Shown one piece after another: positions 37,995 through 61,138 of a DNA stretch of 64,000 nucleotides. The DNA is from a virus. The notes beneath the pieces are model-generated. The model had not been told where the DNA came from, searched no databases, and saw nothing but the letters and a program-made list of their open reading frames with translations. Position 1 is the stretch's first letter, and each line of letters opens with the position of its first letter. Location of the stretch: positions 21,102 through 85,101 of the IMG/VR virus record IMGVR_UViG_3300036859_000973. The stretch is one strand, 5' to 3'. Made by a program: the position numbers and the translations under genes.

Positions 37995-38346
37995 TTCCTT
38001 CGCAGATCGGGCACGCCATGTGGACGCGCCCGTCCTCCAACCTCGTGACCCAGCCACCGGCGCAGCCGCGCGGGCACGGCTCGAAGCTCACGGGCACGAG
38101 GGAGTCGAGCGCGACCGCATCGACCGCGACGACCTGTGTCGGGACGACCTTGGCCTTGATCCTGGGTTGCCGCAGGATCGACGGAGGTGCGTCCTCGCGC
38201 TCCGCCTCGTGGCGCCGCCCCGGGATCACGATGGGCCGCGTCAGGACGGCCCACAGCAGCGCGACGAACAGCACCGGGATGATGAGGCCCGTCACGGTGA
38301 GCACGACGACGGCTCCGAGCACCGCGGCGGGCCAGAGGTCGGTCAC
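37990..38346 (-). CDS. Membrane protein with C-terminal zinc knuckle
   Basis: GTG 38346 overlaps the helicase stop by 4 nt (GTGA). The 118-residue product has a hydrophobic N-terminal segment of two close helices (AAVLGAVVVLTVTGLIIPVL, VALLWAVL), then a basic linker and a C-terminal CPRGCAGGW ... MACPICEGK zinc-binding pattern. It may be a small sensor or host-interaction factor at the membrane. No family is recognised. Confidence 0.6.
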   Translation of the reverse strand: MTDLWPAAVLGAVVVLTVTGLIIPVLFVALLWAVLTRPIVIPGRRHEAEREDAPPSILRQPRIKAKVVPTQVVAVDAVALDSLVPVSFEPCPRGCAGGWVTRLEDGRVHMACPICEGK

Positions 38347-41177
38347 GCGCCCCCCATCAGTCGCTCGGCGACGGCGTCCATGATGTTCGCCTCGATCTCG
38401 CCATCGGCTCCGTCGTGGACGGCGGCGGACTCCTTCTGCTTCTCCACGAGCACGCCCCAGATGTGCTCGTCGATGCTGCCCTCGCCGAGGAAGTACCAGG
38501 ACGTCAGGCCGTGCGGATCGTTCTGGCGCGCGTAGCAGCGCCCCTCGGCTTGGATGAAATGTGCGGTGGGTGTCCACCAGAGCGATAGGGTCGCCATGTG
38601 CGACGCCGCGGTCATCGTGTATTGCTCCCCGCCGGCCAGGAGCGATCCGATGAGCTTGCGGCACGACGGATCAACCTGGAAACGGTCCACGTTCTTCTGC
38701 GCCGCGGCGCCCATGCCGCCGCGCACGATGGCGGAGTCCGGGAACGCCTCGACGAGCTTCGACATCGCATCCTCGTGATGGGCCCAGACGACGATCTTCT
38801 GGTCGCTCGACGGTGGGAAGTTGTCGTTCAACCACTCGATGACGCCGGCGACCTTGCCGATCTCCGTGAGATGGCGCAGCTTGTTCAGGCGCACCAGCTT
38901 CTCGGCGCGCATGGCGCCACTCGGGTCCTTGCCGTGAGCCACGAGCCACTGGACGATGTCCTCCTCGGCGGCGCGGTACTCGGCCTCGTTCGTGAGCGGC
39001 AGCGGGATCACGTTGCGCTGGAGCGGCGGAAGCTCGCCGAAGACCTCCTCCTTCGTGCGCCGCACCATGCACGTTGATCTCAAGCGCATGTGCAGGCCCT
39101 TCAGGTCGCGCACGCCCTTGCCGCCGAGGCGGTCCTGGCGCTGCCGGCCATAGGTGAAGCGGAATTGCGTCGGCCCGCCGAACTCGTTGATCCATCCCAG
39201 TACCGTGAGCGGCACGACGAGATCCTCCGCGGTGTTCACCACGGGGTTCGCCGTCAGGCCGACGCGCAGCGGGACGTCCTGGCTCAACGCGAGCGCGGCC
39301 TCGGCGCGGAGCGTGTTCCTGTTGCGGACCGAGTGGATCTCGTCGAAGACGACGGCGCGCGGCTTCAGCGCGCGGAGCGCGTCGATGTGTTTGTGAAGCA
39401 AATTATACGAGACCAGGTAGCAGTCGGCGCCCGTGGGAATCGTGCCCTTGCCCTCGACCACGACGACGCTGCGGCCGGGCAGCCAAGCCTTCATCCCGAG
39501 CGGATCGTAGCCCATGATGTGGCGCTTCCAGTGCTGCTTGCCGTTGCCGCGCACGACGAAGATCGCCGGCCATGCCCCGAGGGCGTGGGGGATCGCCATG
39601 CCCTGCTGCGTGTTGTGCGTCAAGATGCAGTGCTCAGTCGCATAGAGGGCGTCTGGCGCATCCACGGCGATGCACACGGATTCGGCATCCTCAACGTATT
39701 CGATAGATTGAACAACCCGGCGGGGAGCAGCAGATCTCCCAGGTGAATATCGAGACGCCCTTCGTGGCAGGGTAAATGGTGGAATCTCCGCTGGCAGTCG
39801 GATGCGAACTTGGTAGTCCGTAGGTTTTGATTCGTGTGAGCGATCGTATGCCCGCACGCTGGCTACTCCACCAAGACCCTCGACCAATTCTTGGACGTTT
39901 CCTGCTAGACGGGCGCTGATCGTATGATAATTGATTTTGTTTCCCGTCTTGGAGATACTTCCGTCACCATCCATCAGGCCGTGAAGCAAGGCGATACGAT
40001 CATTTGGCGTGGCTCTCAGATAAGCAATGGGGATGTGTTTCTCTCGGCTTAGAACATCAAGGTCCAGTGATCTAATGGCATTGATGATGCCAGAAAATCC
40101 TGCGCGGATCACATTATCATATTTGTTCTCGCTGCTTGCGACAATTCCCTCCTTCTTGAGCCTAGTCTTGATGAATGACCAATTCCACTTGGCTGTAGAG
40201 AGTTGTGGTGTGCCACTGGCGAGGTGCCCATTTGCAATGAGCTGTCCTAGAAAATATGGTGGGATTGGCAGGTTGCCCCTCTGCTTGTTGAAGATCACCG
40301 GTTTCTTGAGCATTGGCAAATGCAACTGAGTCTTGCTCAAATCGAGCTTTGTGCTCTTACGAGTGCCACTTTTCCACTTCATCTCAAGAATGGGTCGTGT
40401 CCTCATCTGTTCGGTGGTCAGGACGATTTCTTTCCATCTGCGTCCGCCGCAGTGGTATCTCATCGTCCATAGGTGATCTGGGCCGGCTTCGACCGAGGAA
40501 CCGTCGCTGAACTTCACCCGATAGCTAGGTTTTGTTCCCTGTGGGAAGATGGCGAGGACGTTCGCAGGTTTTCCGTTGGAACCAATGACGTTGTCTCCAA
40601 CTTTGAGAGAGCCGATGGTGCGCCATCCGCTCGATGTGAGGACATTTGTATTCGTCCTATGACATTTTCCGAGGCCGGTCTCGTCACCGATCAGGACGCC
40701 GATCGTCTTCTTCTCCGGCAGCTTCACAGGATCAACGACGTCGCCGCCAACCTCGTGGCCGGCGAGTCGCATAGCGAAGGCTACGCTCGCAGCTTGGTAC
40801 GGCCGCAGGTCCATCCGCATCCCAGACACCTGGAAGTGCGCCTCGGGCAGCGCGCTGGCGGTCCGCGTCGCCTCGGCGCGCTTGAGCACACCATCCGCAA
40901 GCTCGCGCGCCTCGTCGCCCCAGCGGTACGCGAACTTCTGGGTGAACTTGATGAGTTCGAGCACCTCGCTGAAGCTGGCGCCGACGAGCCATGTCTTCGA
41001 CTCATTGTCCCACGCCGGGCGCGGCCTGGGCCAGACGCGCACGGCCTCCGCGAAGGCGATGTCGTACTCGCCCTCGATGGCAAAGCCTTCGCCGCGGCGG
41101 TGGATCGTGCCGGTGCCGAACTTCCGCGTGGCGGTCGGGACGACGCCACCTTTCGGCTTCAGGTTGTAGAGGCCCAT
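38343..41177 (-). CDS. HARP/SNF2-type ATP-dependent helicase with intein
   Basis: The 944-residue precursor is a 593-residue helicase plus a 351-residue intein. The N-terminal 110 residues resemble a HARP domain (RVWPRPRPAWDNESKTWLVG). The helicase has VLIGDETGLGK|TQQGMAIPH (Walker A, split), a DEAH-type box FDEIHSV, GLTANPV, and, at the C-terminus, HFIQAEGRCYARQ (motif VI). HARP-SNF2 proteins anneal or remodel DNA. Such helicases are frequent in phages as repair or transcription-coupled enzymes. It is the first gene of the right-hand module, behind no clear operator. Confidence 0.75.
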   Translation of the reverse strand: MGLYNLKPKGGVVPTATRKFGTGTIHRRGEGFAIEGEYDIAFAEAVRVWPRPRPAWDNESKTWLVGASFSEVLELIKFTQKFAYRWGDEARELADGVLKRAEATRTASALPEAHFQVSGMRMDLRPYQAASVAFAMRLAGHEVGGDVVDPVKLPEKKTIGVLIGDETGLGKCHRTNTNVLTSSGWRTIGSLKVGDNVIGSNGKPANVLAIFPQGTKPSYRVKFSDGSSVEAGPDHLWTMRYHCGGRRWKEIVLTTEQMRTRPILEMKWKSGTRKSTKLDLSKTQLHLPMLKKPVIFNKQRGNLPIPPYFLGQLIANGHLASGTPQLSTAKWNWSFIKTRLKKEGIVASSENKYDNVIRAGFSGIINAIRSLDLDVLSREKHIPIAYLRATPNDRIALLHGLMDGDGSISKTGNKINYHTISARLAGNVQELVEGLGGVASVRAYDRSHESKPTDYQVRIRLPAEIPPFTLPRRASRYSPGRSAAPRRVVQSIEYVEDAESVCIAVDAPDALYATEHCILTHNTQQGMAIPHALGAWPAIFVVRGNGKQHWKRHIMGYDPLGMKAWLPGRSVVVVEGKGTIPTGADCYLVSYNLLHKHIDALRALKPRAVVFDEIHSVRNRNTLRAEAALALSQDVPLRVGLTANPVVNTAEDLVVPLTVLGWINEFGGPTQFRFTYGRQRQDRLGGKGVRDLKGLHMRLRSTCMVRRTKEEVFGELPPLQRNVIPLPLTNEAEYRAAEEDIVQWLVAHGKDPSGAMRAEKLVRLNKLRHLTEIGKVAGVIEWLNDNFPPSSDQKIVVWAHHEDAMSKLVEAFPDSAIVRGGMGAAAQKNVDRFQVDPSCRKLIGSLLAGGEQYTMTAASHMATLSLWWTPTAHFIQAEGRCYARQNDPHGLTSWYFLGEGSIDEHIWGVLVEKQKESAAVHDGADGEIEANIMDAVAERLMGGA
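39612..40664 (-). other. Intein with LAGLIDADG endonuclease, class 3 signature, Cys at position 1
   Basis: This segment encodes 351 residues (172-522 of the precursor) inserted exactly between the Lys and Thr of the Walker A motif. It starts CHRTNTNVLTSSGW, ends LTHN, followed by Thr. GPDHLW supplies Trp at residue 66 (B:12), ESVCIAV the Cys (331, F:4) and LTHN the Thr (349): the class 3 Trp-Cys-Thr set, here with Cys at position 1. A first LAGLIDADG-type motif reads LGQLIANGHL, with Asn where the Asp is expected, so cleavage activity may be weak or lost. The second, LLHGLMDGDG, is intact. It is clearly related to the intein at 24470-25507. Confidence 0.85.
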
Positions 41178-45326: not shown

Positions 45327-45562
45327 TCGTCCGCCTCCCGCGGGGTGCAGCGTGCGCAGGCCTGGCTCATGTCGGTCAGGTCGCTCCCGCTCCAGTCCTC
45401 TTGCGTCGGCTCGCCGTCGCGACCGAGATCGCGGATCGTCCACGTCCCGCTGTAGAAGCGTCCGTGCTCGCAGCGGCCGGTGTGCTTGATGCTCCACGCG
45501 CGCGGCCCGAGATCGGGCCGTTGTCGTGGTGCGGCGTCGTCACCCTGAGGCTTCCATGGCAT
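45323..45562 (-). CDS. Small Cys-containing protein, first gene of operon (79 aa)
   Basis: ATG 45562 has the GAGGGAAACGC leader sequence 3 nt upstream and lies behind operator copies at 45600 and 45656. The 79-residue product includes GRCEHGRFYSGTW and MSQACARCTPREA, a possible zinc-binding protein. As the first gene of an operator-controlled operon it is a candidate early protein. No family is recognised. Confidence 0.55.
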   Translation of the reverse strand: MPWKPQGDDAAPRQRPDLGPRAWSIKHTGRCEHGRFYSGTWTIRDLGRDGEPTQEDWSGSDLTDMSQACARCTPREADE

Positions 45563-45594
45563 GTCGCGTTTCCCTCTGCCGGATCGCTCACCGG

Positions 45595-45676
45595 CAAGGT
45601 ACATACGTTGTCCAACAGCATCTAACCTTCTGACATTGAGTTGTGCATCAATGCACACATACGTTGTATGTAGGAG
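45595..45676 (-). promoter_or_regulatory. Two operator copies upstream of the 45.3-45.6 kb operon
   Basis: One half-type copy, TACATACGTTGTCCA, is at 45600-45614, and a near-complete palindrome, CACATACGTTGTATGTA, is at 45656-45672. A possible TATA-like AAGGTTAGAT (minus strand; plus about 45631-45640) lies between them. Two binding sites 56 bp apart may allow cooperative or looped repression. The gap is about 190 nt and holds nothing else that I recognise. Confidence 0.6.
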
Positions 45677-45754
45677 AGCCAGGCGGCGGGTGGGGAGGGA
45701 AACGCGCTGCATTAACGCGAGAGTCCCACCCGCCGTTCCTGGGGTCATTTGGAA

Positions 45755-45910
45755 TCATCCTCTCATGGCGAGGCGCGCGCCGTGGACGGCGCGGAGTCCA
45801 TCCACCTTCAGCTTGCCACCGCTCGGACCGATGCACGGCTCATCCGGCGCCGCGTCGCAAAAGGAGCAGCGGTAACGTTGGAGATCGTGGAGCGTCGCGC
45901 GGGTGCTCAT
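45755..45910 (-). CDS. PC-type zinc-finger microprotein (51 aa)
   Basis: From ATG 45910 the 51-residue product contains CSFCDAAPDEPCIGPSGG and ends with a basic-histidine region (LRAVHGARLAMRG): a C-x2-C-x6-C...H pattern. The same layout occurs at 54059-54721 and 59450-59992. It is coupled to the upstream gene by ATGA. Likely a small nucleic-acid or protein-binding module; the function is unknown. Confidence 0.6.
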   Translation of the reverse strand: MSTRATLHDLQRYRCSFCDAAPDEPCIGPSGGKLKVDGLRAVHGARLAMRG

Positions 45911-46251
45911 GCGCCCTCCGGCTCGATCTGCACACCCAGCTTCGCAAGCTCGCGCTCGGCGACGCGCGCGACGTCCTTGCATCTGCGAAGCTCCTTCTCT
46001 GCCGTGAGGACGTCCTCCTGGGCGCTCTTGTAGAAGGCGAGCCAGGCATCGAGCGGCGTCTCCCGGAGGTAGCCGACCCTGACCTTGCGGGCGTGGCCAG
46101 TCGCCTCTGGCCGCCCCCGATTGTCGCTCTCGTCCACCCACAGGTCGCCGCTCGGCGTCTGCTTCGCGATCAGCACGGAGAACAGCTTGGGATGGTCGCC
46201 GTAGCGACTGGACACGACGTACATGGTCCGCGGGAACGACGACGGCTCCAT
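45907..46251 (-). CDS. Hypothetical protein (114 aa)
   Basis: The 114-residue product starts MEPSSFPRTMYVVSSRYG and has a strand-rich front half and a helical C-terminal half (LTAEKELRRCKDVARVAERE). It overlaps its downstream neighbour by ATGA and is separated by 5 nt from the upstream gene. No domain is recognised. Confidence 0.5.
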   Translation of the reverse strand: MEPSSFPRTMYVVSSRYGDHPKLFSVLIAKQTPSGDLWVDESDNRGRPEATGHARKVRVGYLRETPLDAWLAFYKSAQEDVLTAEKELRRCKDVARVAERELAKLGVQIEPEGA

Positions 46252-46256
46252 CTAGC

Positions 46257-46799
46257 TCACCACCCCGCCGCGGCTTCGCGTAGCTTGGCCAGGCCAGCGT
46301 CGCCGAGCCCGGCGCGGAGCTTGAGGGCAAGCTCCAGGCAGGTCCGATAGATGGCCTCGCCCTTGCGGCTGTCGGGATCGAAGCCGAGGTCGGCAGCCCA
46401 CTCCTCGAAGGTCGCGCAGTCCAGCACGCTCGCGTCCATGGCCAGCGACGAGAGCACGTCCAGCGGATCGGGCTTGAGCGGGCGCGTCTTGACGAAGTTG
46501 CCCATGCCACGCCACGCGAAGCCTGTTTCGCACTCCTGCTTGATGGCCTCGTGTCGGTCCACGGAGTTGGAGGCTCCAAGGCTTGGGTCCTTGTAGCTCG
46601 GCGCGTGGCCACAGCCGGCGGAGAAGTCCGTGGCCAGCACCAAGCGCCCTTCGCGCAGCACGCTCACGCGCCAGTTGAGCGACGGGTCCTTCTCGCCCGC
46701 GTTGCGCGAGCGCGACCACGGGACGAAGTCCGCCTCAACGGTCAGCCCTAGCTCGGCGACCACGGCGCGGAAGGCCTCGGCCTCGGAGCGTTCGGTCAC
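46257..46799 (-). CDS. Hypothetical phage-type protein (180 aa)
   Basis: The 180-residue product begins MTERSEAEAFRAVVAELGLT (start at GTG 46799), has a strand-rich front (VPWSRSRNAGEKDPSLNWRV), and a helical end with FEEWAADLGFDPDSRKGEAI. The phrase 'FEEWAADLGFDPDSRKGE' is a pattern seen in many small phage proteins of unknown function. GTG overlaps the previous stop as GTGTGA. No role can be assigned. Confidence 0.55.
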   Translation of the reverse strand: MTERSEAEAFRAVVAELGLTVEADFVPWSRSRNAGEKDPSLNWRVSVLREGRLVLATDFSAGCGHAPSYKDPSLGASNSVDRHEAIKQECETGFAWRGMGNFVKTRPLKPDPLDVLSSLAMDASVLDCATFEEWAADLGFDPDSRKGEAIYRTCLELALKLRAGLGDAGLAKLREAAAGW

Positions 46800-47071
46800 A
46801 CTTTCACCCCGGCATCATTCAGCGCGGCCTCGGCGTTGCGAAGGTCCGGACCTGAATCTTGTCCTGCGAAGTTATCCTCGCACCATTGGACAAGCTCGGC
46901 CAGCGCATCGCGCAGCGCGGGCGCGGCAGCGATGAGGCGAGCGTTGGCTTCGGCTTCAGGACGCTCCGAGTAAGCCAGGGCTAGTGGTTCGTCGTCGGGG
47001 CCGACCACCTCGCAAACGTCCGGGTTCTGTTCGTTGATGCTCCACGGTCCCGGCGTCGGCTGCGCGCTCAC
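46796..47071 (-). CDS. Ea22-like phage protein (91 aa)
   Basis: The GTG at 47071 gives a 91-residue product with PTPGPWSINEQNPDVCEVVG and EANARLIAAAPALRDALAEL, the signature of small Ead/Ea22-like phage proteins of unknown function, often in early regions. The GTGA overlap with the 32-codon gene upstream supports the start. It probably acts early in infection, but its role is not known in any phage that I can name. Confidence 0.6.
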   Translation of the reverse strand: MSAQPTPGPWSINEQNPDVCEVVGPDDEPLALAYSERPEAEANARLIAAAPALRDALAELVQWCEDNFAGQDSGPDLRNAEAALNDAGVKV

Positions 47072-47166
47072 CGCGACCGCCCCCAGGTGCAGCCCTTCGG
47101 CGCCGCATAGGCGCCGGGCTCCTCGATCTTCACGGCTTGGACCGTCCAGAGGCAGAGCTTCAGCAT
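47068..47166 (-). CDS. Microprotein (32 aa)
   Basis: A 32-codon ORF (ATG 47166; MLKLCLWTVQAVKIEEPGAY) lies between two coupled genes. The 3' end overlaps the GTG of the Ea22-like gene (GTGA) and its start follows the next gene's stop by 3 nt. Small size leaves real doubt, but conserved coupling suggests it is translated. Confidence 0.35.
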   Translation of the reverse strand: MLKLCLWTVQAVKIEEPGAYAAPKGCTWGRSR

Positions 47167-47169
47167 GGC

Positions 47170-47802
47170 TCACGCCTCCTTGTCGTCGGCCTGGGCCTTC
47201 GCCTCGATGGCCTCGGCCACGGCCAGCAGCGCGACCACGGTGCGGGCGCGGTCCTCGCGCCAGCCGCTCCCGGTACCGGGTTGGCCCAGGCCATTCCGTG
47301 CGTCCTCGAAGGCGCGCACCACGTCCTCCGCGTACGAGTGCAGCCGGTCCACAGTGTCGCGCCTGGCGCCCGCCAGGAGCATGGCCCGGCCCTCGGGCGA
47401 CGCGGCCCACCTGTTGACGGCGTTCTCCAGCGTCGGCCGCACGGCCTCCTGCGCCGCGTGCGTGCCGTTCTTGAGCCAGTCCAGGCCCTGCACCGTCCAC
47501 CATCCCGGCTCCGCCTTGATGGCCTCGGGCCCGGGCAGCTTGAGGAACCCGAACAGGCGACACTCCTTGCCGCGCACGATCCACGGCGCGGTGGTGGCCT
47601 TCTGCGCTTCCGTCGGGTTGTAGCTCGGCACGTCGGCGCACGAAACCCCGATGAAGCCGCCCGTTACCCACAGCCGCAGCGCGGGCTGCTTGGTCGCGAG
47701 GTTCGCAGGCAGCACGGCCTCCGGCATGTCGGGCACTTCGATGCGCGCCAGCTTGCGCGCGTCGGCTTCCAGTTGCTCCAGCATCTTGAGACGGTCGCTC
47801 AT
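47170..47802 (-). CDS. Hypothetical protein, first gene of operon (210 aa)
   Basis: ATG 47802 is directly preceded by the GAGGGAAACGC leader and by an operator promoter at 47867-47896. The 210-residue product has a helical front (SDRLKMLEQLEADARKLARI), a middle with a Trp-rich stretch (PGWWTVQGLDWLKNG), and a helical end. No domain is recognised. Its placement under the operator makes it a likely early protein. Confidence 0.55.
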   Translation of the reverse strand: MSDRLKMLEQLEADARKLARIEVPDMPEAVLPANLATKQPALRLWVTGGFIGVSCADVPSYNPTEAQKATTAPWIVRGKECRLFGFLKLPGPEAIKAEPGWWTVQGLDWLKNGTHAAQEAVRPTLENAVNRWAASPEGRAMLLAGARRDTVDRLHSYAEDVVRAFEDARNGLGQPGTGSGWREDRARTVVALLAVAEAIEAKAQADDKEA

Positions 47803-47863
47803 GCGTTTCCCTCATGCCCCGGTTCCGGCGGGGCGTCCGCGCGGATCGGCTCCGCGTGGCCCT

Positions 47864-47897
47864 TGAGACTACATACACCGTATGTAGTCATAAAGGT
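47864..47897 (-). promoter_or_regulatory. Operator palindrome and TATA box
   Basis: The palindrome TACATACACCGTATGTA is at 47870-47886, extended by matching arms to 47867-47889 (10-bp arms around ACC). A TATA-like CCTTTATGAC (minus strand) lies at 47887-47896, directly beside the operator, as at 35450 and 52487. It drives the gene at 47802. Confidence 0.65.
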
Positions 47898-47909
47898 TTG
47901 CAGCAAGGC

Positions 47910-48248
47910 CTATCGCCCCCATGGCGATGGCCGCGGCGGGGGCGGTGGCTCCGCGGTGGCGTTGCCGCTGCCGCTGACGGCGACGGGCGGAGCCGCGGCC
48001 TCGGGGCAGCCCGGAGCCCGCGCGAGCGCCGGCACCCATCGGACTTGCCATTCGCCCGTCGTCTGGTTATAGTCGTAATGATCCTCCACCATCGGGCAAC
48101 GCGGCCCGCCCATCAGCGGCAGCGCCACGCGGTTGGCGCCGACGTTGGCGCCGAGGGCGCCGTCTGCGCCGGTGAAGTCCAGCGTCACCCACGCGAAGGT
48201 GACGGTCCAGCCGACGATAAGCAGGGTCGCGATGATCGGGCTGCTCAT
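47910..48248 (-). CDS. Membrane-anchored protein with Pro-rich tail (112 aa)
   Basis: The 112-residue product has one N-terminal hydrophobic segment (IATLLIVGWTVTFAWVTLDF) with a short positive-poor front, then a strand-rich outer part (HYDYNQTTGEWQVRWVP) and a Pro-rich tail (AEPPPPPRPSPWGR). The likely topology is outside-facing. It overlaps the next gene by ATGA. A role at the envelope is inferred. Confidence 0.55.
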   Translation of the reverse strand: MSSPIIATLLIVGWTVTFAWVTLDFTGADGALGANVGANRVALPLMGGPRCPMVEDHYDYNQTTGEWQVRWVPALARAPGCPEAAAPPVAVSGSGNATAEPPPPPRPSPWGR

Positions 48249-48736
48249 GGCTCGGCCTCCAGGGATTCAGCGTATTGGAGGGCGTCCAGCGCCCCCATGT
48301 CGTCGTCGCCGTCCGGTTCTTCCTCGGCCACGTCGCCGCACGCGCACGTCCCGCGACCGTGGCATTTGCCCATGCACTTACGGCAGGTGCATTGCCGCCT
48401 TCCGTTCAGGCACCGCGCATCGCACCGGCCCCCGCCCTTGCCCGGCTCGGGCTCGCGGTACTTGATGAACCGCACGGGCGCCATGGCGAAGCACGCCCCG
48501 CACTGACCCCACCGGCGGTGCCCATCCGGGTCGCCCTCGCCGCTCGGCATCAGCACCACGCGGGCGGCGCTCATGCCGTCGTCGGTGTGGCCACCGTAGC
48601 GGGCCTCACGCTCGCGGCGCCGGTACGTCAGCGGGCGCACGGGCCCGTGGGCCGCGCAGTCCGCCCACGCCAGCAAGCCCCCGGGAGTGCGGAAGGGCTC
48701 ACGGTCGCGCGCGGCCAGCGTCGGGGCCCACGTCAT
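48245..48736 (-). CDS. Hypothetical protein with C-terminal Cys cluster (163 aa)
   Basis: From ATG 48736 the product ends in a dense metal-binding motif: CDARCLNGRRQCTCRKCMGK followed by CHGRGTCACGD. At least nine cysteines suggest a two-metal zinc module. The front half is Arg/Gly-rich. It is at a junction that carries the repeated GGTGGGCGCATGA sequence. The function is unknown. Confidence 0.6.
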   Translation of the reverse strand: MTWAPTLAARDREPFRTPGGLLAWADCAAHGPVRPLTYRRREREARYGGHTDDGMSAARVVLMPSGEGDPDGHRRWGQCGACFAMAPVRFIKYREPEPGKGGGRCDARCLNGRRQCTCRKCMGKCHGRGTCACGDVAEEEPDGDDDMGALDALQYAESLEAEP

Positions 48737-49059
48737 GCGCCCACCGCCCCGCAAAGGTCGCACCGCTGGCCGACGCGCGCGGCGCAGCCCGGGTCCGCAT
48801 CGTGCAACAGCACGCGCCCGGCGGGCTCAGCGCGGAATAGGGCCAGCGCCGGCTCTTGGATCAGGCCCGAGTCCAGGAGCTTGTCCACAAGCTCCTGGGC
48901 CCGTTCCAGTGGCACGCCGGACACGCCTAGCTCGCCCCAGCCAAGGAACGGGCCCCACGCCGAAGGCCGCATCCCGCGGCGCCACTCGGTGTGCTTGCCG
49001 GGCTCGCCGAGCGCGATGGCGCGCAGCACGGCGCGGGCCTCGGGGTCAAGGGGTTCCAT
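48733..49059 (-). CDS. Hypothetical protein with small HTH-like region (108 aa)
   Basis: The product begins MEPLDPEARAVLRAIALGEP and continues with a helical middle (LERAQELVDKLLDSGLIQEP, winged-helix-like), ending in a CDLCG knuckle. The fragment 'AQELVDKLLDSGLI' resembles an HTH recognition segment, but the similarity is weak. The stop overlaps the next start inside the repeated GGTGGGCGC junction. Confidence 0.5.
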   Translation of the reverse strand: MEPLDPEARAVLRAIALGEPGKHTEWRRGMRPSAWGPFLGWGELGVSGVPLERAQELVDKLLDSGLIQEPALALFRAEPAGRVLLHDADPGCAARVGQRCDLCGAVGA

Positions 49060-50022
49060 TCAAGCACCCTCCAGGTTGAAGGCTTGGTCCGCGCCCTTGC
49101 CTTCGGCCGGGTCATCGCCGGCCCCCTCGGGCGCCGGAAGGAAGGCCTCCACGCGGCCGCGCTCGGAGGTTGTCCGCCATGCGCTTACCTCGGCGCCGGG
49201 CCAGGCCTTCTTGATCCGCGCGACGGGCGAGGGCTCGCCGGTGAGGCCGCCCCAACAGTAGCGGCCCTCTTCAAAGACGGCGGGCTTCAGCGCGGGCTGC
49301 CACGTCAGCCGGCCGCCCTCCATCCCGCGAGGGAGCAGCACGCGCACATAGCCGCGCGTGGTGCCGCCCAGCACGTCGGCGGCGATGGCCTCCAGGGCCT
49401 CGAAGCCCAGAGGCTCGCCCTCGGTATCGTCGCCACTGAGAAACGGCATGGGCGGATAGAAGGCCCCGGGCTTGTGGTCGGCGCTGTGCGAAATGCCCCG
49501 CCGGTCGCCGGTGTCCTCGCCCAGGCACTTGTAGCGCGCGCCCGTCGCCGGATCAACGGGCCCGTATTCGCCCGGCACGCTCCCCGGCGGCGGGCCGAAC
49601 CTCTTCCCGCCCAGGTACACCTGATGAAGCTCGGCGTGGGGCGCCATGCTTACCCAGAGGTGGGATGGCGCTTGCGTCCTCGGCTCAGCCGGCGCGCTCG
49701 GCACGGTCCCCGGCAGCGCAGCGCAGCGCGCGGCTTCCGTCCCGCCGATGATGCGGGGCAGCCGGCCCGCCAGGCCCGCGGCGTCGGTGCCATGCTTGGC
49801 CGCGCGCTCGGCGATGCGCTGCGCCGCGGTCGCGCCGTCCGCGCCGCCATCCCATGGCCACAGCCGCGCCCGCGCCGCGTCGGCGGTGCCCTCATAGGCC
49901 CACACCAAGCGCGCCTCGCGCTTGTAGAAGTCCAGCGCCGAGGGCGGGACGGCCTTCGCCTTGCGGTCGCGCGGCATCAGGGCCAGATAGACGATTTTCC
50001 CCAGGCGGCGCTCGCCGGTCAT
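49060..50022 (-). CDS. Hypothetical protein (320 aa)
   Basis: The 320-residue product has a basic start (MPRDRKAKAVPPSALDFYKR), an Ala-rich middle, and a region with CW and DAxxR patterns but no known motif. It contains GEPSPVARIKKAWPGAEVSA and ends in an acidic tail. It is one of the larger genes of this accessory stretch and is coupled to both neighbours. Could be a DNA-modifying enzyme or structural protein; no evidence points to one. Confidence 0.5.
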   Translation of the reverse strand: MTGERRLGKIVYLALMPRDRKAKAVPPSALDFYKREARLVWAYEGTADAARARLWPWDGGADGATAAQRIAERAAKHGTDAAGLAGRLPRIIGGTEAARCAALPGTVPSAPAEPRTQAPSHLWVSMAPHAELHQVYLGGKRFGPPPGSVPGEYGPVDPATGARYKCLGEDTGDRRGISHSADHKPGAFYPPMPFLSGDDTEGEPLGFEALEAIAADVLGGTTRGYVRVLLPRGMEGGRLTWQPALKPAVFEEGRYCWGGLTGEPSPVARIKKAWPGAEVSAWRTTSERGRVEAFLPAPEGAGDDPAEGKGADQAFNLEGA

Positions 50023-50327
50023 GCCAGCACGCTCCCCGCGTCGCGCCCATCAGGCGCGGGAAGGTCCCATTCCGGGCGCAGCCGGCCGGTGAAGTCCTCG
50101 GCTTCTAGCAAGAACGGCACGCGCTGGCCCAGCGGCGTCAGCACTTCCAGCGCATCGCCGATGAACGGGCGGCCCCCGTCGCGACGGCGCGCGAGCGCGC
50201 GCAGCACCGCGCGCGCCATGGCCTCGGTGCTTGCGAACGGGCCGGGGAGCGCGCGGTCCAGCGACACGGGCTCGCCGGCCATATCCACGGTCGCGCCGCG
50301 GAGCCGGCACGGCCAGGGCTCAGACAT
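50019..50327 (-). CDS. Hypothetical protein (102 aa)
   Basis: ATG 50327 overlaps the end of the upstream gene by 8 nt (ATGTCTGA). The 102-residue product has MSEPWPCRLRGATVDMAGEP and a strand-rich C-terminal half (VLTPLGQRVPFLLEAEDFTG). The ATGA overlap with the downstream start supports it. No domain is recognised. Confidence 0.5.
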   Translation of the reverse strand: MSEPWPCRLRGATVDMAGEPVSLDRALPGPFASTEAMARAVLRALARRRDGGRPFIGDALEVLTPLGQRVPFLLEAEDFTGRLRPEWDLPAPDGRDAGSVLA

Positions 50328-51123
50328 CGGCCGCACCCCCGCGGAAGCCGAGCGTTCCCGCCATGCCGGCGGCGTCGCCCTTGATGGCGACCACGCGCGA
50401 GCCTTCGGGCATGGCGGCGTGAATCTCGCAGGCCAGGTATTCCGTGTCGTCGCCGTCGGCGATGATGAATCCGCCGCACGGCCCGTCGCCCACGTCCTCG
50501 CCGTTGCCGTCGCGCAGCGTGAAGCCGTACACCTCGCCATGGTCCCAGGCGTTCCACAGCCCGAGGAACGTTTCAGCGTCGGCGCGGCGGGCCGCGACGG
50601 TCCGCGCGCCGATGTTCTCGGACGGCTCCTCCCAGACTAGGAACCCCTCGGCGTCCTCGGCGCCGTCGGCGATGGCCCAGGCGTCATAGGTGCGGCGCAG
50701 CGGCCACGCCAGCCCGACGCGGAGCTTTGCCATCAGCCAGCCCAGGGGCTTGAATCCCTCGGTCAGAAAGTCCGAGGGCTCCTCGGCGCGCACCTTGAAG
50801 CGGCGCTTGCCCGGCGAGTAGTGCCGGCTCCCCGTGCTTCCCGCGTGGTCGCGGTGGAGGCTATACAGCATCCATACGCCGTCGGCGTCGGCCGGCGACG
50901 TCGGCGACGGATCAATCCATAGCTCCAGCGTGAGGCTCAGCGCGCGCTCGGCCTCGGCGGCGATGGCCTCGGCGAGCTTCAGGCCCGCCGGGCTTGTCTC
51001 GCCGTTGGGGCCGACGTATGTTGAAAGCTCCAGCGGCGGGCGGAAGCTGAAGGGCTCGCCGGCCTTGGCCAGCGCCTCGGCGATGCGGCCCACGGCCGCG
51101 GGCGTCTTGACGGTTGGGCTCAT
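50320..51123 (-). CDS. Hypothetical protein (267 aa)
   Basis: ATG 51123 stands at a GGTGGGGCGCATGA junction. The 267-residue product is mainly helical in the first half (AVGRIAEALAKAGEPFSFRP, AEAIAAEAERALSLTLELWI), then has strand-rich and acidic segments (WLMAKLRVGLAWPLRRTYDA, GGFIIADGDDTEYLACEIHA). The regular pattern suggests a folded enzyme or scaffold, but no motif is recognised. Confidence 0.5.
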   Translation of the reverse strand: MSPTVKTPAAVGRIAEALAKAGEPFSFRPPLELSTYVGPNGETSPAGLKLAEAIAAEAERALSLTLELWIDPSPTSPADADGVWMLYSLHRDHAGSTGSRHYSPGKRRFKVRAEEPSDFLTEGFKPLGWLMAKLRVGLAWPLRRTYDAWAIADGAEDAEGFLVWEEPSENIGARTVAARRADAETFLGLWNAWDHGEVYGFTLRDGNGEDVGDGPCGGFIIADGDDTEYLACEIHAAMPEGSRVVAIKGDAAGMAGTLGFRGGAADV

Positions 51124-51488
51124 GCGCCCCACCCCCGGGCCAGCGCCTCGGCCTTCTCCCCGAGCGTCGCGCCGATGGCTTCCGCCGTGCCGGGCGGCGC
51201 CTCGGTCATGGTTTCGACCGGGCCCCACGCCATCACGTCCGGCACGTTCGACACGGCCAGGAGTGGAGCGGTCCATAGCTCGCCGCGATGCACCGCGTAG
51301 GCGGAGCCGCTGGGCGGATGGATCAGGACTTCGGCCAGCGCCATGGCCTCGTGCGCGCCGGCCAGCGCGGCCCCGGCGCAGCGGATCAGGTGGGCCTGGG
51401 CCGGGCTCGGGTTGGCGGGCGTGGCGTCGGGCGCCACGTCGCCGTTGGGCAGCGGCGCGCTGCACACCGGGCACGGGTTCGGATTCAT
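51120..51488 (-). CDS. Zinc-finger-containing hypothetical protein (122 aa)
   Basis: From ATG 51488 the product starts MNPNPCPVCSAPLPNG, a C-x2-C zinc knuckle in the first ten residues, with one more Cys near residue 37 (LIRCAGAALAGAHEA). The remainder is helical. The gene ends ARGWGA and its stop overlaps the next start in the shared junction motif. Function unknown. Confidence 0.55.
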   Translation of the reverse strand: MNPNPCPVCSAPLPNGDVAPDATPANPSPAQAHLIRCAGAALAGAHEAMALAEVLIHPPSGSAYAVHRGELWTAPLLAVSNVPDVMAWGPVETMTEAPPGTAEAIGATLGEKAEALARGWGA

Positions 51489-51679
51489 GCGCCCACCGCC
51501 AGCGCGGCGGCGCGGTACATGGCCGCGCGCTCCAGGTCCGCGGCGCCCCAGGTGCCCCACCCGTGGGCCAGCATCGCGGCCCCGGTGCGGTCCAGCACGT
51601 CCGCGAAATGTTCCAGCGTGTCCGCGTCCCAGTCCCGCACGCGCGGAGCGCGCCGGTAGGCGGCTTGAAGGAGGCTCAC
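51485..51679 (-). CDS. Small hypothetical protein (64 aa)
   Basis: GTG 51679 gives a 64-residue helical product (VSLLQAAYRRAPRVRDWDAD, TLEHFADVLDRTGAAMLAHG) ending in AVGA. The GTGA overlap with the upstream stop and the ATGA overlap with the downstream start both use the repeated junction sequence. No domain is recognised. Confidence 0.5.
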   Translation of the reverse strand: MSLLQAAYRRAPRVRDWDADTLEHFADVLDRTGAAMLAHGWGTWGAADLERAAMYRAAALAVGA

Positions 51680-52104
51680 GCGCCCACCCCCGCGGCAGCG
51701 GCCCGCGCACGCTCGCGCTCGCCACATACGCACAGCGACCCGTAGGCGTGCGGCCGCGCGAGGCTGCCGACGTTGCGGGACGCGATGGCCCCGCGCTTGG
51801 CCTTGTAGTCCTCGGCGCCGTTGAAGGCGGCCATGCCGGAGCGCACGCGCGCGGCGGGCGCCTTGGCATAGACCACGTTCAGGAAATGGAGGAACCCGTG
51901 AAAGCACGTCGCCGCGATGCGCGATAGCTCGCCGTCCTTGCGCTCGCGGAAGCCCACGCGCCGGTAGCGGTCGCCCACGGGCCGGAGCTTCACTTTGAAG
52001 CACGGCCCGCCGCGGCGCAGCGGGACGGGCTCCAGGTCCATGGCCACGCCGGCGGCCTTGGCCGCGGCGCGAAGCTGGGCCTCGGTCGCGCCCCACACCT
52101 TCAC
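51676..52104 (-). CDS. Hypothetical protein (142 aa)
   Basis: GTG 52104 starts a 142-residue product with a helical front (EAQLRAAAKAAGVAMDLEPV), then an Arg-rich middle (RPVGDRYRRVGFRERKDGEL) and a helix with HGFLHFLNVVYAKAP. It ends AAAAGVGA, like its neighbours. The stop again overlaps the next start. No function is recognised. Confidence 0.5.
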   Translation of the reverse strand: MKVWGATEAQLRAAAKAAGVAMDLEPVPLRRGGPCFKVKLRPVGDRYRRVGFRERKDGELSRIAATCFHGFLHFLNVVYAKAPAARVRSGMAAFNGAEDYKAKRGAIASRNVGSLARPHAYGSLCVCGERERARAAAAGVGA

Positions 52105-52319
52105 GCGCCCACCCCCGCGCGCAGCGTGCGGCCGGCGCGAAGCGCGGCGAGGGCCAGGCGCTCCCTCGCGCCGTCCATGTCCGCGCACGTCGCGGCGAAC
52201 GCCTCACGGTTCAGCGCGGCGAGCGTGGCCAGCGCGGCCAAGGCGAGGTCGCGGCCGGGGATGCGGTCTTGAGCGGGCTCCGTTGCGTGCGGGTCAAAGA
52301 CCCGTTCCAGCGATGCCAT
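52101..52319 (-). CDS. Small hypothetical protein, first gene of operon (72 aa)
   Basis: ATG 52319 follows the GAGGGAAACGC leader. The 72-residue product is helical, Ala-rich (LALAALATLAALNREAFAAT) and ends RTLRAGVGA. It begins an operon controlled by the operator at 52484-52506, about 165 nt upstream. The leader between the two contains a tRNA-like folded segment. Confidence 0.55.
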   Translation of the reverse strand: MASLERVFDPHATEPAQDRIPGRDLALAALATLAALNREAFAATCADMDGARERLALAALRAGRTLRAGVGA

Positions 52320-52335
52320 GTGCGTTTCCCTCTTT

Positions 52336-52461
52336 TGCGCGCCCCGTCCAACGGGGCGGACGGGCCGGCGCGGGGGATTGAACCCCGCCCGGCCCCGGCC
52401 GCGATGGGCTCGCGGCGGGCTTAGCCCTTCAACCCTCGGCCGCGGCGCCGGGTTCGGGGCC
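52336..52461 (-). other. Structured leader RNA with tRNA-like T-arm
   Basis: In the leader of the 52.1 kb operon the minus strand has CGGGG-TTCAATC-CCCCG (plus 52371-52387), a perfect 5-bp stem with the seven-nucleotide T-loop of tRNAs, flanked by GC-rich stems and a D-arm-like GGCCGAGGGTTGAAGGGC (plus about 52415-52435). The acceptor and anticodon arms do not pair properly and U33 is missing, so a functional tRNA is unlikely. It may be a decayed tRNA or an att-like remnant, or simply a stable leader hairpin. Confidence 0.3.
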
Positions 52462-52479
52462 GCGGTTCATCGGGCATGC

Positions 52480-52515
52480 TCGGGACTACATACGCTGTAT
52501 GTAGTCATTAAGGTT
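52480..52515 (-). promoter_or_regulatory. Operator palindrome and TATA-like box
   Basis: TACATACGCTGTATGTA lies at 52487-52503, extended to 52484-52506 with ten-bp arms around GCT, followed by CCTTAATGAC on the minus strand (52504-52513) as TATA-like element. It drives the operon that starts at 52319 and sits downstream of the UvrD helicase gene. It matches the sites at 35450 and 47870. Confidence 0.65.
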
Positions 52516-52520
52516 ATTGG

Positions 52521-54059
52521 TCAAACCTGAACGTCGCCATCCTCCGAAACGGACAATTCCCCCCAGAACCCCGGAAGCTGGCCCTGGAACGTCAGCCGGT
52601 CAAGGCTGCGTGTCACGGCAACGTAGGCTATTTTGTCCTCCTGATAAATGGGAGATTCGGGCGCGCTGCGCGGGTGGGGCATATTCTCGGGCGCGAGGAT
52701 GGCGACGTGCCGCGCCTCGGCGCCCTTCGCGCGATGCACCGACGAGAAGGTGACGGCCCGCGCGTCCGCGTCCTTGGCCTCGCCATCGACCACGAGGGAG
52801 CGGATACGGTCCGCCACGTCGCGCAGCGTGCGCGCGCCCTCGGCCGCGGCCACAAGGCACGCCGCGCGGTCCTCGGCATCGGCCAGGGCGTTGGCCGCGA
52901 AGCGGTGCCGCGCGAGGCGGGCCTCTTCCGCGCTAAGCCATGCGTTGGCCGCCTCGGCCAGGTCGCTCGGCCATCGCGCGCCGTGGTCGCGCTCCAGGGT
53001 CGCCATCAGGCGAAGGAGGCCCTCGGCGAGCCCTTGCGTGCCAAGCACGCGCGCGGCCACACCGTTGCGGATCAGGCGCAGCGCGCCCTTCAGGAGCGGG
53101 GCGTTGGTGCGCGATAGCGCGAGGTCGCCGGGCGCAAGCTCGGCGAGCGGATCCGCCACCACGCGCACGCTCCCCTCGGGTGCGCCCGGCCGGGCCTCAA
53201 AGGCCGGTACAAGGCGCTGGGCGAGCTTCGCGACGCGCACCGGGCAGCGCCACGAGACGGTGAGGGGATAGTCGCGCGTGAGGCCAAGCTCCGCGGCGAG
53301 CTTATCCATGGAGTCCGACGCGGCGCCGCGCCACGCATAGATAGCTTGGTTGGGGTCGCCCACCGCGATGCACGGGCCGCCGTCGGCGAGCGCGCGCTTG
53401 GCCAGCGCGATTTGAACCGGCGCCCAGTCCTGGGCCTCATCGGCCACGATGCCGGGCCGCGGTGCAACCTCCAGGCCCTCGGCGAGCGGGAGATAGAGCA
53501 TGTCGGCGAAGTCCACGCCGTAGCGGCGCCAGTCCTGGGCATCCATGGCGCGCGTGGTCCAACCGTCCATGATGGGCGCTTCCCAACCGTTCAGGTTGAT
53601 GCCGTGAAGGTCCGCCAGGTCCCGCGCCGTGGCTGGATCCGTCGGGTCCGCGTCGGGATAGCCGGCGCGCGCCAAATCCCAGAGGCGCGCGATGGGCCCG
53701 TAGGGCGGCGGCTGCCGGCGGCGCTCCGCGATGGGTTCAAGCGTCGGGCCCCAAATGAGGCGGAGCTTCGCGAAGCGGTCCTCATGGACCGGAAGCCGGC
53801 CGCGGCCCCATGCGCGCTGCAGCGCGCCGTAGCCTAGGCTGTGCGTGGTGCGGGCTTCCACGCCGGGCGGGACCTTCCGTTGAAGGTCCGTCGCATCGCG
53901 CTTGCCGAACGCCAGATAGGCCGTGCCGGCGGGCATGCCGGCCGCGCCGCGGGATACGGTCCACGTCTTTCCGCTGCCGGCCAGGGCGATGATGCGGGCC
54001 CGCTCGCCGCGCTTCATGGCGGCCCAAATGTCCGTTTGCTGGGCCGTTGGCTCGGGCAT
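52521..54059 (-). CDS. UvrD/Rep-family (superfamily 1) helicase
   Basis: The 512-residue protein shows all SF1 motifs: Walker A ALAGSGKT (about 25-32), a Q-like start QQTDIWAAM, Walker B ADEAQDWAPVQ, motif III VGDPNQAIYAWRGA, motif IV SWRCPVRV, motif V SSVHRAKGAEARHV, and motif VI YVAVTRSLDRL. It is shorter than host UvrD/Rep, with small 1B/2B domains. Such helicases unwind 3'-tailed duplexes, clear proteins and aid replication. It follows a helical gene and is the largest enzyme of the module. Confidence 0.8.
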   Translation of the reverse strand: MPEPTAQQTDIWAAMKRGERARIIALAGSGKTWTVSRGAAGMPAGTAYLAFGKRDATDLQRKVPPGVEARTTHSLGYGALQRAWGRGRLPVHEDRFAKLRLIWGPTLEPIAERRRQPPPYGPIARLWDLARAGYPDADPTDPATARDLADLHGINLNGWEAPIMDGWTTRAMDAQDWRRYGVDFADMLYLPLAEGLEVAPRPGIVADEAQDWAPVQIALAKRALADGGPCIAVGDPNQAIYAWRGAASDSMDKLAAELGLTRDYPLTVSWRCPVRVAKLAQRLVPAFEARPGAPEGSVRVVADPLAELAPGDLALSRTNAPLLKGALRLIRNGVAARVLGTQGLAEGLLRLMATLERDHGARWPSDLAEAANAWLSAEEARLARHRFAANALADAEDRAACLVAAAEGARTLRDVADRIRSLVVDGEAKDADARAVTFSSVHRAKGAEARHVAILAPENMPHPRSAPESPIYQEDKIAYVAVTRSLDRLTFQGQLPGFWGELSVSEDGDVQV

Positions 54060-54721
54060 CAGGCGGCCCCCACGGGCTCGGCCGGCTCGGCCTCGGCCGC
54101 GGGCCTCTGGCGCGCGCCCAGGGCCGCTAGGAGGGCTTTCAGGGCGGGGTCCGACCGTGGGGCCGGCCCACCACGCCCCGCGCGCAGCGGGGCCAGGGTG
54201 TGCGCCTTGCGCGGCCGCGCGGCGCGCCAGTCCCTCACGCGCGCATCATGGGCGGTTTCCTTGGCCAGGCCGGTCCGACCACGGCACGGCGCGCCAGGGT
54301 TCGCCCGACAGTCCCGGCACGGCACGGCCCGGGCCAGCTTGGCCACGCGCTCTAGGCGCTCCGCTTCGCGGCGCAGCCCGGCGAGGTTGCTTGGGGGCTC
54401 CATGTCCCATCGCGTGCGCGGCGGGATGGGCAAGCCCGCGCGGGCCAGGGCAGCCGGCGAGCCGGGCGCGGGCGGAGCGGCGCGCGGAAGGCGATAGGCG
54501 CGCATCATGTCCGGGCTGTGCCATGGCTCCTGCCCGGGCCAGGCTTCCCAGGCTAGGAGCGTGCGCCGGAAGGCGTCGCCCAGCGAACCGTGCCCGCCGC
54601 GGCGGATGGGTGCGCCGTGGTGGCGAGGTTCGGGCGCGCCATCGGCGCGGCTATCGTCAATCTCAAGCGCTGGCCCGCCGCGGATGGCGGCGCGGGCCTT
54701 CATGATGACGGTTCTTTCCAT
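54059..54721 (-). CDS. PC-type zinc-finger protein (220 aa), first gene of operon
   Basis: ATG 54721 follows a GAGGGAAACGC leader and an operator at 54746. The 220-residue product is Ala/Arg/Pro-rich with a metal-binding VPCRDCRANPGAPCRG (about residues 123-138), then AKETAHDARVRDW, giving C-x2-C-x6-C and H. The stop overlaps the UvrD helicase ATG, so the pair could act together. The N-terminal half has no recognised domain. Confidence 0.55.
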   Translation of the reverse strand: MERTVIMKARAAIRGGPALEIDDSRADGAPEPRHHGAPIRRGGHGSLGDAFRRTLLAWEAWPGQEPWHSPDMMRAYRLPRAAPPAPGSPAALARAGLPIPPRTRWDMEPPSNLAGLRREAERLERVAKLARAVPCRDCRANPGAPCRGRTGLAKETAHDARVRDWRAARPRKAHTLAPLRAGRGGPAPRSDPALKALLAALGARQRPAAEAEPAEPVGAA

Positions 54722-54739
54722 GTGCGTTTCCCTCTTGTG

Positions 54740-54772
54740 TCTGACTATATACTTTGTATTTAGCGTTTCTCT
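54740..54772 (-). promoter_or_regulatory. Diverged operator and TATA-like box
   Basis: TATATACTTTGTATTTA at 54746-54762 is a diverged member of the operator family (compare TACATACGTTGTATGTA). A minus-strand ACGCTAAATAC lies over it at about 54757-54767 and may be the TATA box. It precedes the gene at 54721. The remaining intergenic sequence to 54861 shows nothing else obvious. Confidence 0.45.
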
Positions 54773-54861
54773 GGGGCGCTACGCTTAGTTGCGGGCCGGT
54801 GGCGATGGCGCGCGGCCGCTTGACGTGCACGCGGGCCGCGCGACCACGGATCGACGGCCCT

Positions 54862-55287
54862 TCAGGCCTCCGGGCTGGCCTCCGACCGCGGGACTTCGCC
54901 GGCGGCGATGGCGCGCGCCTCGCGCAGCGCGATGGCCAGGCGGTCCGCAAGCACCGAATGGGCCAGGGCCCAGCGCGCACCGGTGGCGAGCATGTCGCGC
55001 GCGTCGGCGCGCCATGCGTCGAACCCGACGGTTTGCACGTCGAAACGGCCATCGGAAAGGCGCGCGCGAATCACCACATAGCCACCGGTCGGACCGTCGG
55101 CGCGATAGAGCCGCGCCAGGTAGGTGGGTTCATCGGACGGAAGGCCAACCTCGGCCGGTCGGAGGCGCGCTTCGGCATCGGGCCGGCGGCCCGTGGCCAT
55201 GTCATGCACAGCCAGCGAAAGCACGTCGGCGCGCGCCTCGGCGCGGTTCATTCGATCCAAGGCCTCGGCGATGGTCGGTCGCGGCAT
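54862..55287 (-). CDS. Hypothetical protein (141 aa)
   Basis: ATG 55287 is overlapped by the stop of the membrane microprotein upstream (TAATG). The 141-residue product has a helical front (TIAEALDRMNRAEARADVLS), a strand-rich middle (LSDGRFDVQTVGFDAW) and a helical end. No domain is recognised. It is followed by a 140-nt gap with the operator at 54746. Confidence 0.5.
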   Translation of the reverse strand: MPRPTIAEALDRMNRAEARADVLSLAVHDMATGRRPDAEARLRPAEVGLPSDEPTYLARLYRADGPTGGYVVIRARLSDGRFDVQTVGFDAWRADARDMLATGARWALAHSVLADRLAIALREARAIAAGEVPRSEASPEA

Positions 55288-55367
55288 TAGAAGGCCCCCA
55301 GCATGAAGGCCATGGCGACCCAGGGCGCGGCGCCCAGGGCGAGCATGGCGGTTTGCGTTGCGGACAT
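55287..55367 (-). CDS. Single-span membrane microprotein (26 aa)
   Basis: The 26-codon ORF (ATG 55367) encodes a continuous hydrophobic helix (SATQTAMLALGAAPWVAMAF) and ends in TAA that overlaps the next ATG (TAATG). It has the GAGGGAAACGC leader just before its start, the same translation leader as other first genes. The combination of leader and coupling supports expression. It may act on the membrane, for example as a small regulator or a lysis helper. Confidence 0.5.
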   Translation of the reverse strand: MSATQTAMLALGAAPWVAMAFMLGAF

Positions 55368-55464
55368 GGCGTTTCCCTCTTTGTCGGCGCGCCTTGCGGC
55401 GCGGCGGGCTTCCCGCGATGGCGCGCGCGTCGCGCCATTTCGGGCCGTGGCCAACGGCCCATCA

Positions 55465-55929
55465 TCAGGCGAGGTTCTCAGGGTCGAAGGCGTCCATGAG
55501 GGCCGCGAAATTGTCGCCCGGGTCGCGAGAGAAAGAGTAGTCTGCGACGATTTCCTCCGGGCTGTTGCCGCGCACGAAATAGACCCAGTGCGTGGCCTTG
55601 CCGTTCGTGAAGTCGAAGCGGCCTTCATCAAGGTTGAAGAGAAGCTCCATGAGGCCCTTCTTGTCTTGGTTGGCGACGGGCTCCGGGCCCGTGTCGGCAT
55701 CCAGCCATGCCACGGGCCGCCATCCACCGGCGGCGAGGGCGTCACACAGCGCGGCCACCACGGCGCGCTCCTTGCGACCATGGGCCGTTGGGATAACGCC
55801 ATAGCGCTCGGCCATGAGCTTGTCAATCTCCAAGCTCGGCACCTTGCCGTGCGTGCCTTGCGCTACCTCGCCTTGTGTTGCCGGGCCGTCCGCTCCTGTG
55901 GTCGCGTTCGCGTCTTGGGTCTTGGTCAT
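55465..55929 (-). CDS. Hypothetical protein, first gene of operon (154 aa)
   Basis: From ATG 55929 the 154-residue product begins MTKTQDANATTGADGPATQG, has a Lys/Arg-poor middle (HGRKERAVVAALCDALAAGG), then an acidic C-terminal half with WRPVAWLDADTGPEPVANQD. It lies behind a GAGGGAAACCTAGC variant of the leader and an operator half-site. No family is recognised. Confidence 0.5.
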   Translation of the reverse strand: MTKTQDANATTGADGPATQGEVAQGTHGKVPSLEIDKLMAERYGVIPTAHGRKERAVVAALCDALAAGGWRPVAWLDADTGPEPVANQDKKGLMELLFNLDEGRFDFTNGKATHWVYFVRGNSPEEIVADYSFSRDPGDNFAALMDAFDPENLA

Positions 55930-56285
55930 GCTAGGTTTCCCTCGGACATGCAAGGGCGCTATCTCCACTTATACTTTGTCCAAGCGTCCTTGGACACGTC
56001 CGGCCGTATGGGCGTCCTTGGACGCTCCGCCACGGTCCGCCTAGTAGGGTTCCAACGGAACCCTACTAGGCCGCGCGCCGCAGGCAAGGGCAAGGTCGCT
56101 CGGCCGCTCCCGTGGTCTTAGGCGACCGTCGGCCAAGTCTCTGGGATGGAACATCCCAGAGACGCCGGCCCGCGCGCGACGACGGGGGGTGGGGAGTATC
56201 CCCGGCCGTCGTGGCCACGGAGACGAACGGGTCCCATCCGAATGGAGTCGCTTGGGTCCCATCTGCGTGCCGCCGCGGGTCCCAT
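55930..56285 (-). promoter_or_regulatory. Regulatory intergenic region with operator half-site, dyads and direct repeats
   Basis: The 356-nt region has no convincing gene. It holds TTATACTTTGTCCA at 55969-55982 (operator half-site), two copies of GCGTCCTTGGAC at about 55984 and 56010, a perfect 15-bp dyad at about 56040-56071 (CCTAGTAGGGTTCC and its complement), a 12-bp dyad at 56137-56163 (GTCTCTGGGATG and complement), and three GGGTCCCATC repeats at 56229, 56254 and 56277. These are arranged like a control region or a second origin. The dyads could also terminate the upstream transcript. Confidence 0.5.
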
Positions 56286-60707: not shown

Positions 60708-61138
60708 GCCCGTTTCCCCTCGTTCATCGCCTTTTGGGCCTGGAGGCAGATCTTGTCGTGTTTCCCTTGATACATCGGATTGTCGATGCCCACTCCACAC
60801 CAGCAATCACCGCGGCGGAGCCCCCAGATGATGGTTCTCGCCTCGTCAAGCTCCTGCATCGCCTTGGCCAGCAGGTACGCGCCCTCCTCGGGCAGGTCGC
60901 TGATGAGGCGGATCTCGGGCTTGCCGCCCGGATTCAAGACCAGCAACGGCTTCGCGCGCAACCAGCGGATCTCGGCGACGAGATCGGGAACGTCTGGTGC
61001 TAGTTTCAACGCGGCATCGCGTGGATCATCTGGTGAATCCATCACCGCGTAGAATCCAAAATCCTCGGCATGGTCTTCGGCAGTTTTCCAGATGGCCACC
61101 CGCGCCTCGATCTCCTTCAGCCGCTCCTCGGTCAGCAC
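60704..61138 (-). CDS. Hypothetical protein with C-terminal zinc site (144 aa)
   Basis: The 144-residue product has a helical front (TEERLKEIEARVAIWKTAED), an Asp-rich middle and a C-terminal CWCGVGIDNPMYQGKHDKIC with two further Cys, a zinc-binding pattern known from small phage proteins. It is adjacent to the next gene. The function is unknown. Confidence 0.55.
   Translation of the reverse strand: MLTEERLKEIEARVAIWKTAEDHAEDFGFYAVMDSPDDPRDAALKLAPDVPDLVAEIRWLRAKPLLVLNPGGKPEIRLISDLPEEGAYLLAKAMQELDEARTIIWGLRRGDCWCGVGIDNPMYQGKHDKICLQAQKAMNEGKRA

Follow-up and report, generated by a model that had tools for sequence, protein, structure and literature searches.

The window considered here is a 64,000-nt stretch (bases 21102-85101) of an 85,101-bp virus contig from IMG/VR, and in its block between 45 and 56 kb every gene is directed leftward. 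Six of the genes in this block are preceded by a common short leader, GAGGGAAAC(GC), which is 9-11 letters long and in its full 11-mer form reads GAGGGAAACGC. As the first-pass annotation had described, five copies of GAGGGAAACGC stop 0-3 nt short of the ATGs at 45562, 47802, 52319, 54721 and 55367, and the ATG at 55929 follows GAGGGAAAC in the full variant GAGGGAAACCTAGC-ATG. The leaders are all on the minus strand, and together with the bases that separate them from the start codon they occupy 45563..45576 (GAGGGAAACGC plus GAC), 47803..47813 (GAGGGAAACGC alone), 52320..52332 and 54722..54734 (both GAGGGAAACGC plus AC), 55368..55379 (GAGGGAAACGC plus C) and 55930..55943 (the variant). The core ends 0-6 nt before the ATG at the six starts. 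The same annotation had spoken of a constant spacer, but the distances from GAGGG to ATG are 6, 7, 8, 8, 9 and 9 nt, and hence the spacers are alike in sequence and unequal in length. A possible, weak seventh member, GAGGGGAAACGGGC, is found at 60708..60721 (-) before the operon-internal ATG at 60707, and the leaders as a whole are restricted to 45-61 kb, which is the non-structural gene region. The gene at 55287-55367 (-) encodes only 26 aa; it is a hydrophobic ORF of leader type, and its stop codon overlaps the start of the following gene (TAATG), an arrangement that suggests translational coupling.

The genome that houses these leaders has a G+C content of 67% and is probably complete, since the contig ends in a 127-bp direct repeat (contig 1-127 and 84975-85101). 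Its matched products include a tail sheath, a baseplate wedge subunit, a tape measure protein, a head maturation protease and the large terminase, and the presence of products such as the tail sheath and baseplate wedge marks it as a contractile-tailed phage, which is otherwise unclassified. The head, tail and baseplate matches fall within the left arm and the first 20 kb of the window. Between these and the leader block, an SNF2-type helicase gene at 38343-41177 (-) is interrupted by an intein, with Hom_end-associated Hint and LAGLIDADG domains inside the helicase domain. No close relative emerged when UvrD, TerL, the SNF2 helicase and the tail sheath served as protein queries against IMG/VR, and the matches from the UvrD profile search of this resource were all at around 30% identity, without synteny and without the leader. 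Searches with leader and operator patterns returned matches that were due to chance or came from unrelated low-GC contigs, and none of the bacterial genomes (GTDB) or annotated phages was close to this phage.

How far removed from chance is such a short sequence? The exact 11-mer occurs six times in the window, is missing from the remainder of the 85,101-bp contig and is absent from 60 of 60 order-3 Markov genomes of like composition. If the shorter GAGGG(G)AAAC is sought on both strands, seven of its nine occurrences, including the one at 60707, stand 11-14 nt before a start predicted with our home-made gene finder. When two mismatches are allowed in the 11-mer there is no enrichment (30 found against 28.8 expected), so that only exact and near-exact copies count. 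The leaders share AAACGC, which represents conservation past the core that pairs with 16S rRNA, and the proteins encoded by the leader genes are not paralogues of one another, which leaves gene duplication unable to account for the common leader. The sample is small, at six starts; the leader is real, far from chance and tied to operon heads.

The features that accompany this conservation concern the accessibility of the start rather than the power of its pairing. GAGGG had initially been taken for a strong ribosome-binding site, an expectation that the energies do not support: the predicted duplex of the six leaders with the 3' end of 16S rRNA has an energy of -6.7 to -7.0 kcal/mol (around -6.9), against a median of -8.9 for the predicted starts of the genome. 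In terms of predicted pairing of the start region, five of the six leader genes belong to the genome's most open quartile. Four of the six leaders have a perfect 6-8-bp stem immediately upstream, at a distance of 0-8 nt from GAGGG. For 45562 this is the 6-bp hairpin TGCCGG-N8-CCGGCA, which abuts the leader (fold z -2.3), for 47802 the 6-bp hairpin GCCCCG-N7-CGGGGC at a distance of 2 nt, for 52319 the 8-bp hairpin CGCCCCGT-N3-ACGGGGCG at 7 nt and for 55367 the hairpin CGCGCC-N4-GGCGCG at 8 nt; the leader of 54721 has none. The same stem definition is satisfied by 4.2% of random positions, by 7 of 132 other starts and by 1 of 35 other starts whose gap is 45 nt or more, giving a binomial probability for the excess at leaders of about 1e-4 or lower with criteria that were set after the sites were viewed. 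As the whole regions upstream of the leaders exceed their dinucleotide shuffles only mildly in stability (z -0.9 to -2.3), the leader hairpins are suggestive, not proven.

Operator-like sites, which come in two forms, the palindrome TACATACnnnGTATGTA and a TTGGACAannGTATGTA-like sequence with the left half TTGGACA, lie further upstream. They are found at 45600..45616 (-) as TTGGACAACGTATGTA, 23 nt before the leader of 45562; at 47870..47886 as the palindrome TACATACACCGTATGTA, 56 nt before that of 47802; at 52487..52503 as the palindrome TACATACGCTGTATGTA, 154 nt before that of 52319; at 54746..54762 as TATATACTTTGTATTTA, with 2 mismatches, 11 nt before that of 54721; and at 55969..55985 (-) as CTTGGACAAAGTATAAG, about 25 nt before that of 55929. 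A further palindrome, CACATACGTTGTATGTA, is positioned between two operons at 45656..45672. Thus, between 45 and 56 kb, the operator-fronted heads at 45562, 47802, 52319, 54721 and 55929 all have a leader and none of the operon-internal genes does, while 55367, which begins 98 nt after the previous gene, has the leader and lacks the operator. The proposal of a shared translation-start leader at operon heads, with five of six leader genes behind operators, is in this way upheld, albeit with two operator forms at distances of 11-154 nt. The stronger proposal, that transcription and translation initiation are standardised together, stands only as far as these five linked genes, for the genes at 30707, 35432 and contig 8809 (window -12293) have operator-like sites 11-25 nt before them (30726, 35450 and contig 8780, window -12322, respectively) and no leader, 55367 stands without an operator, and the gap between operator and leader is variable. 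Its values of 11, 23, 25, 56 and 154 nt represent a 14-fold variation, which argues against the leader belonging to the promoter or to a fixed initial transcribed sequence. Where an operator-like site lies only 11-25 nt before the ATG, the spacing suggests very short or leaderless transcripts. Neither intrinsic terminators nor sigma-70 promoters were detected above chance on the relevant strand around the leaders. A stem-loop that resembles a tRNA T-arm (CGGGGTTCAATCCCCCG, ~52366-52382, -), within the long 5' region of 52319, was considered as a tRNA remnant and set aside, with Rfam and ARAGORN giving nothing above threshold.

The sixth exact copy, which the first-pass annotation had not mentioned, is at 45695..45705 on the plus strand and has no ORF. 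It forms part of an arm and the inner loop of a strong intergenic hairpin at 45680..45745 (-35.9 kcal/mol, z -5.5, with 0 of 200 shuffles as good), such that the hairpin carries the leader copy on its plus strand and an exact 11-nt complement of the leader on its minus strand; no T-run is present at either side. The copy is located some 22 nt past the operator palindrome at 45656, downstream of it in the plus direction, and the chance of a stray copy so near an operator is about 0.7%. It was rejected as the start of a plus-strand gene because no start codon follows it and because a genuine zinc-binding-type ORF (45755-45910) lies beyond it on the minus strand. The copy may represent a relict head or belong to an RNA, and its lack of a gene counts against reading the leader as an operon-head element.

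Elements of this general design have been described in cluster K mycobacteriophages, whose start-associated sequence (SAS) is a 13-bp asymmetric repeat found 3-9 nt before starts and conserved past the core that pairs with the ribosome. It is restricted to non-structural genes, frequently has an inverted repeat and a putative promoter upstream, and its effect on translation initiation is likewise putative (PMC3203893, PMC11373665). Several cluster K phages also have one gene-less SAS on the opposite strand (PMC3203893). The present leader shares the short asymmetric form, the Shine-Dalgarno core a few nucleotides before a start that is mostly ATG, the association with non-structural genes, the conservation in excess of 16S pairing and, with some cluster K genomes, the single gene-less copy on the opposite strand; its upstream features are likewise comparable with the inverted repeat and putative promoter that precede about half of SAS sites. 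The differences are that the sequence is unrelated, the SAS GGGATAGGAGCCC having no match in the window at up to 2 mismatches, and that there are 6-7 copies here, at operon heads only, as opposed to 11-19 for the SAS. The ESAS is a 17-bp imperfect inverted repeat of shared sequence beside the SAS, and the conclusion on its repeats was that they are not RNA hairpins; the present phage, by contrast, has a 17-bp operator palindrome 11-154 nt away plus a separate, adjoining hairpin that differs in sequence from leader to leader. Citrobacter phage Mordin has a 26-bp SAS-like repeat (PMC4611695), which is similarly upstream of starts, for 8 genes within a single arm of this myophage, but is longer and unrelated in sequence. 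A single leader also stands before many starts in Mesorhizobium phage Cp1R7A-A1 and in the IMG/VR contig L060, though in these it is at a near-fixed distance from a promoter-like sequence, unlike the gap of 11-154 nt seen here. With an SAS-like architecture and an unrelated sequence, the leader is probably of the same functional kind as the SAS; it does not belong to the cluster K family. We read it as a new example of an already described, poorly understood kind of element.

The leader is also not alone in its own genome. A second family, CCAGYGGGAnnGGAG, precedes the starts at 32739, ~32890, 33092 and 33319 and has no other occurrence in the contig; these four neighbouring starts fall within 32730-33350 (-), near terL. 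A third, GGTGGGCGC (48736-52113, -), abuts the starts at 48736, 51488, 51679 and 52104, which account for four of its six occurrences, and the genes concerned are operon-internal, with strong Shine-Dalgarno pairing and structured starts. Shared leaders are therefore a habit of this genome, with one family per gene group. To gauge their wider distribution, we took from each genome or segment the 9-mer that recurs at -25 to -1 of the most predicted genes and counted those genes. The count is 6 of 47 genes here (40-61.4 kb) and 18 of 75 in phage Pixie, the positive control, in which the known SAS was recovered. It is 11 of 92 in Cp1R7A-A1, where the SAS-like leader GTCAACGCAAACGGAG is common to eleven genes and has a promoter-like sequence upstream, and 3 of 69 in Sphingomonas phage MMDA13. 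The 41 other IMG/VR segments, each 17-21 kb long, have counts of 3 or fewer except for two with 8, two with 5 and three with 4; the sharing in one segment (L034) is related to repeat genes. These counts indicate that shared leaders are uncommon but recurrent among phages.

What, then, might the leader do? We consider that it acts as an open ribosome-entry element for operon heads, a putative function to which we assign a probability of roughly two in three. Each leader would provide GAGG, a Shine-Dalgarno core of 4 bp, together with an A-rich spacer that is unpaired, before the first ATG of its cluster, and the GC-rich hairpin found 0-8 nt upstream in four of the six cases seems to hold the leader free of pairing. 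At 67% G+C most starts would be buried in structure, and the leader would allow de novo ribosome loading at the operon's first gene, with the downstream genes reached via strong Shine-Dalgarno sequences and stop-start overlaps. We infer that ribosomes use the leader in this manner, and AAACGC may have a role beyond keeping the site open.

It is this AAACGC, unneeded for pairing with 16S rRNA, that would suit a leader serving as an RNA target, in which GAGGGAAACGC would be recognised by an antisense RNA, or by an RNA-binding protein of phage or host, and the leader genes would be switched together. The minus-strand RNA of the very stable hairpin at 45680-45745 carries an exact 11-nt complement, and AGGGA within the leader also matches the ANGGA core of CsrA sites. 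Yet no candidate regulator was found and the complement is partly paired within its own hairpin, and we view this explanation as unlikely. Its most specific version, that the minus-strand hairpin RNA is a phage small RNA pairing with all the leaders and co-setting translation at operon heads, with the operators as the matching transcriptional control, is very improbable.

Descent instead of function could account for the identity of the leaders if an operator plus leader cassette had recently been copied around the genome, leaving 45695 as a relict. A 37-nt operator stretch is indeed 86% alike at 47862 and 52479, and the orphan copy is also beside an operator. However, the intervals between operator and leader, 11-154 nt in length, are unrelated in sequence, operators occur elsewhere without the leader and the downstream proteins are unrelated, making such copying distinctly doubtful, more so than an RNA target. 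Least probable of all is that ordinary Shine-Dalgarno sequences with A-rich spacers have converged with no special meaning. GAGG is the commonest core type here, with 67 predicted starts having it within 20 nt upstream, but a GAAAC continuation is confined to the leader genes and the continuations at the other GAGG starts are nearly all different. The exact identity over 9-11 nt thus disfavours this explanation, as does the finding that one 9-mer at six genes exceeds 39 of the 41 other phage segments (~21 kb).

Since 2011 start-associated leaders have posed a puzzle, as in-depth study has been limited to a single phage cluster. The present phage represents an independent case, its leader being unrelated in sequence, and a simple 9-mer screen was sufficient to find more in other phages; judged by their sequences, the independent leaders of unrelated phages point to convergence. 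To the known picture this genome adds the upstream hairpins at four of six leaders, the gene-less copy within a hairpin by an operator and two further leader families. The screen offers a computational route to the purpose of shared leaders, and to the question of whether phages may use them to tune the translation of their operon heads as a group.
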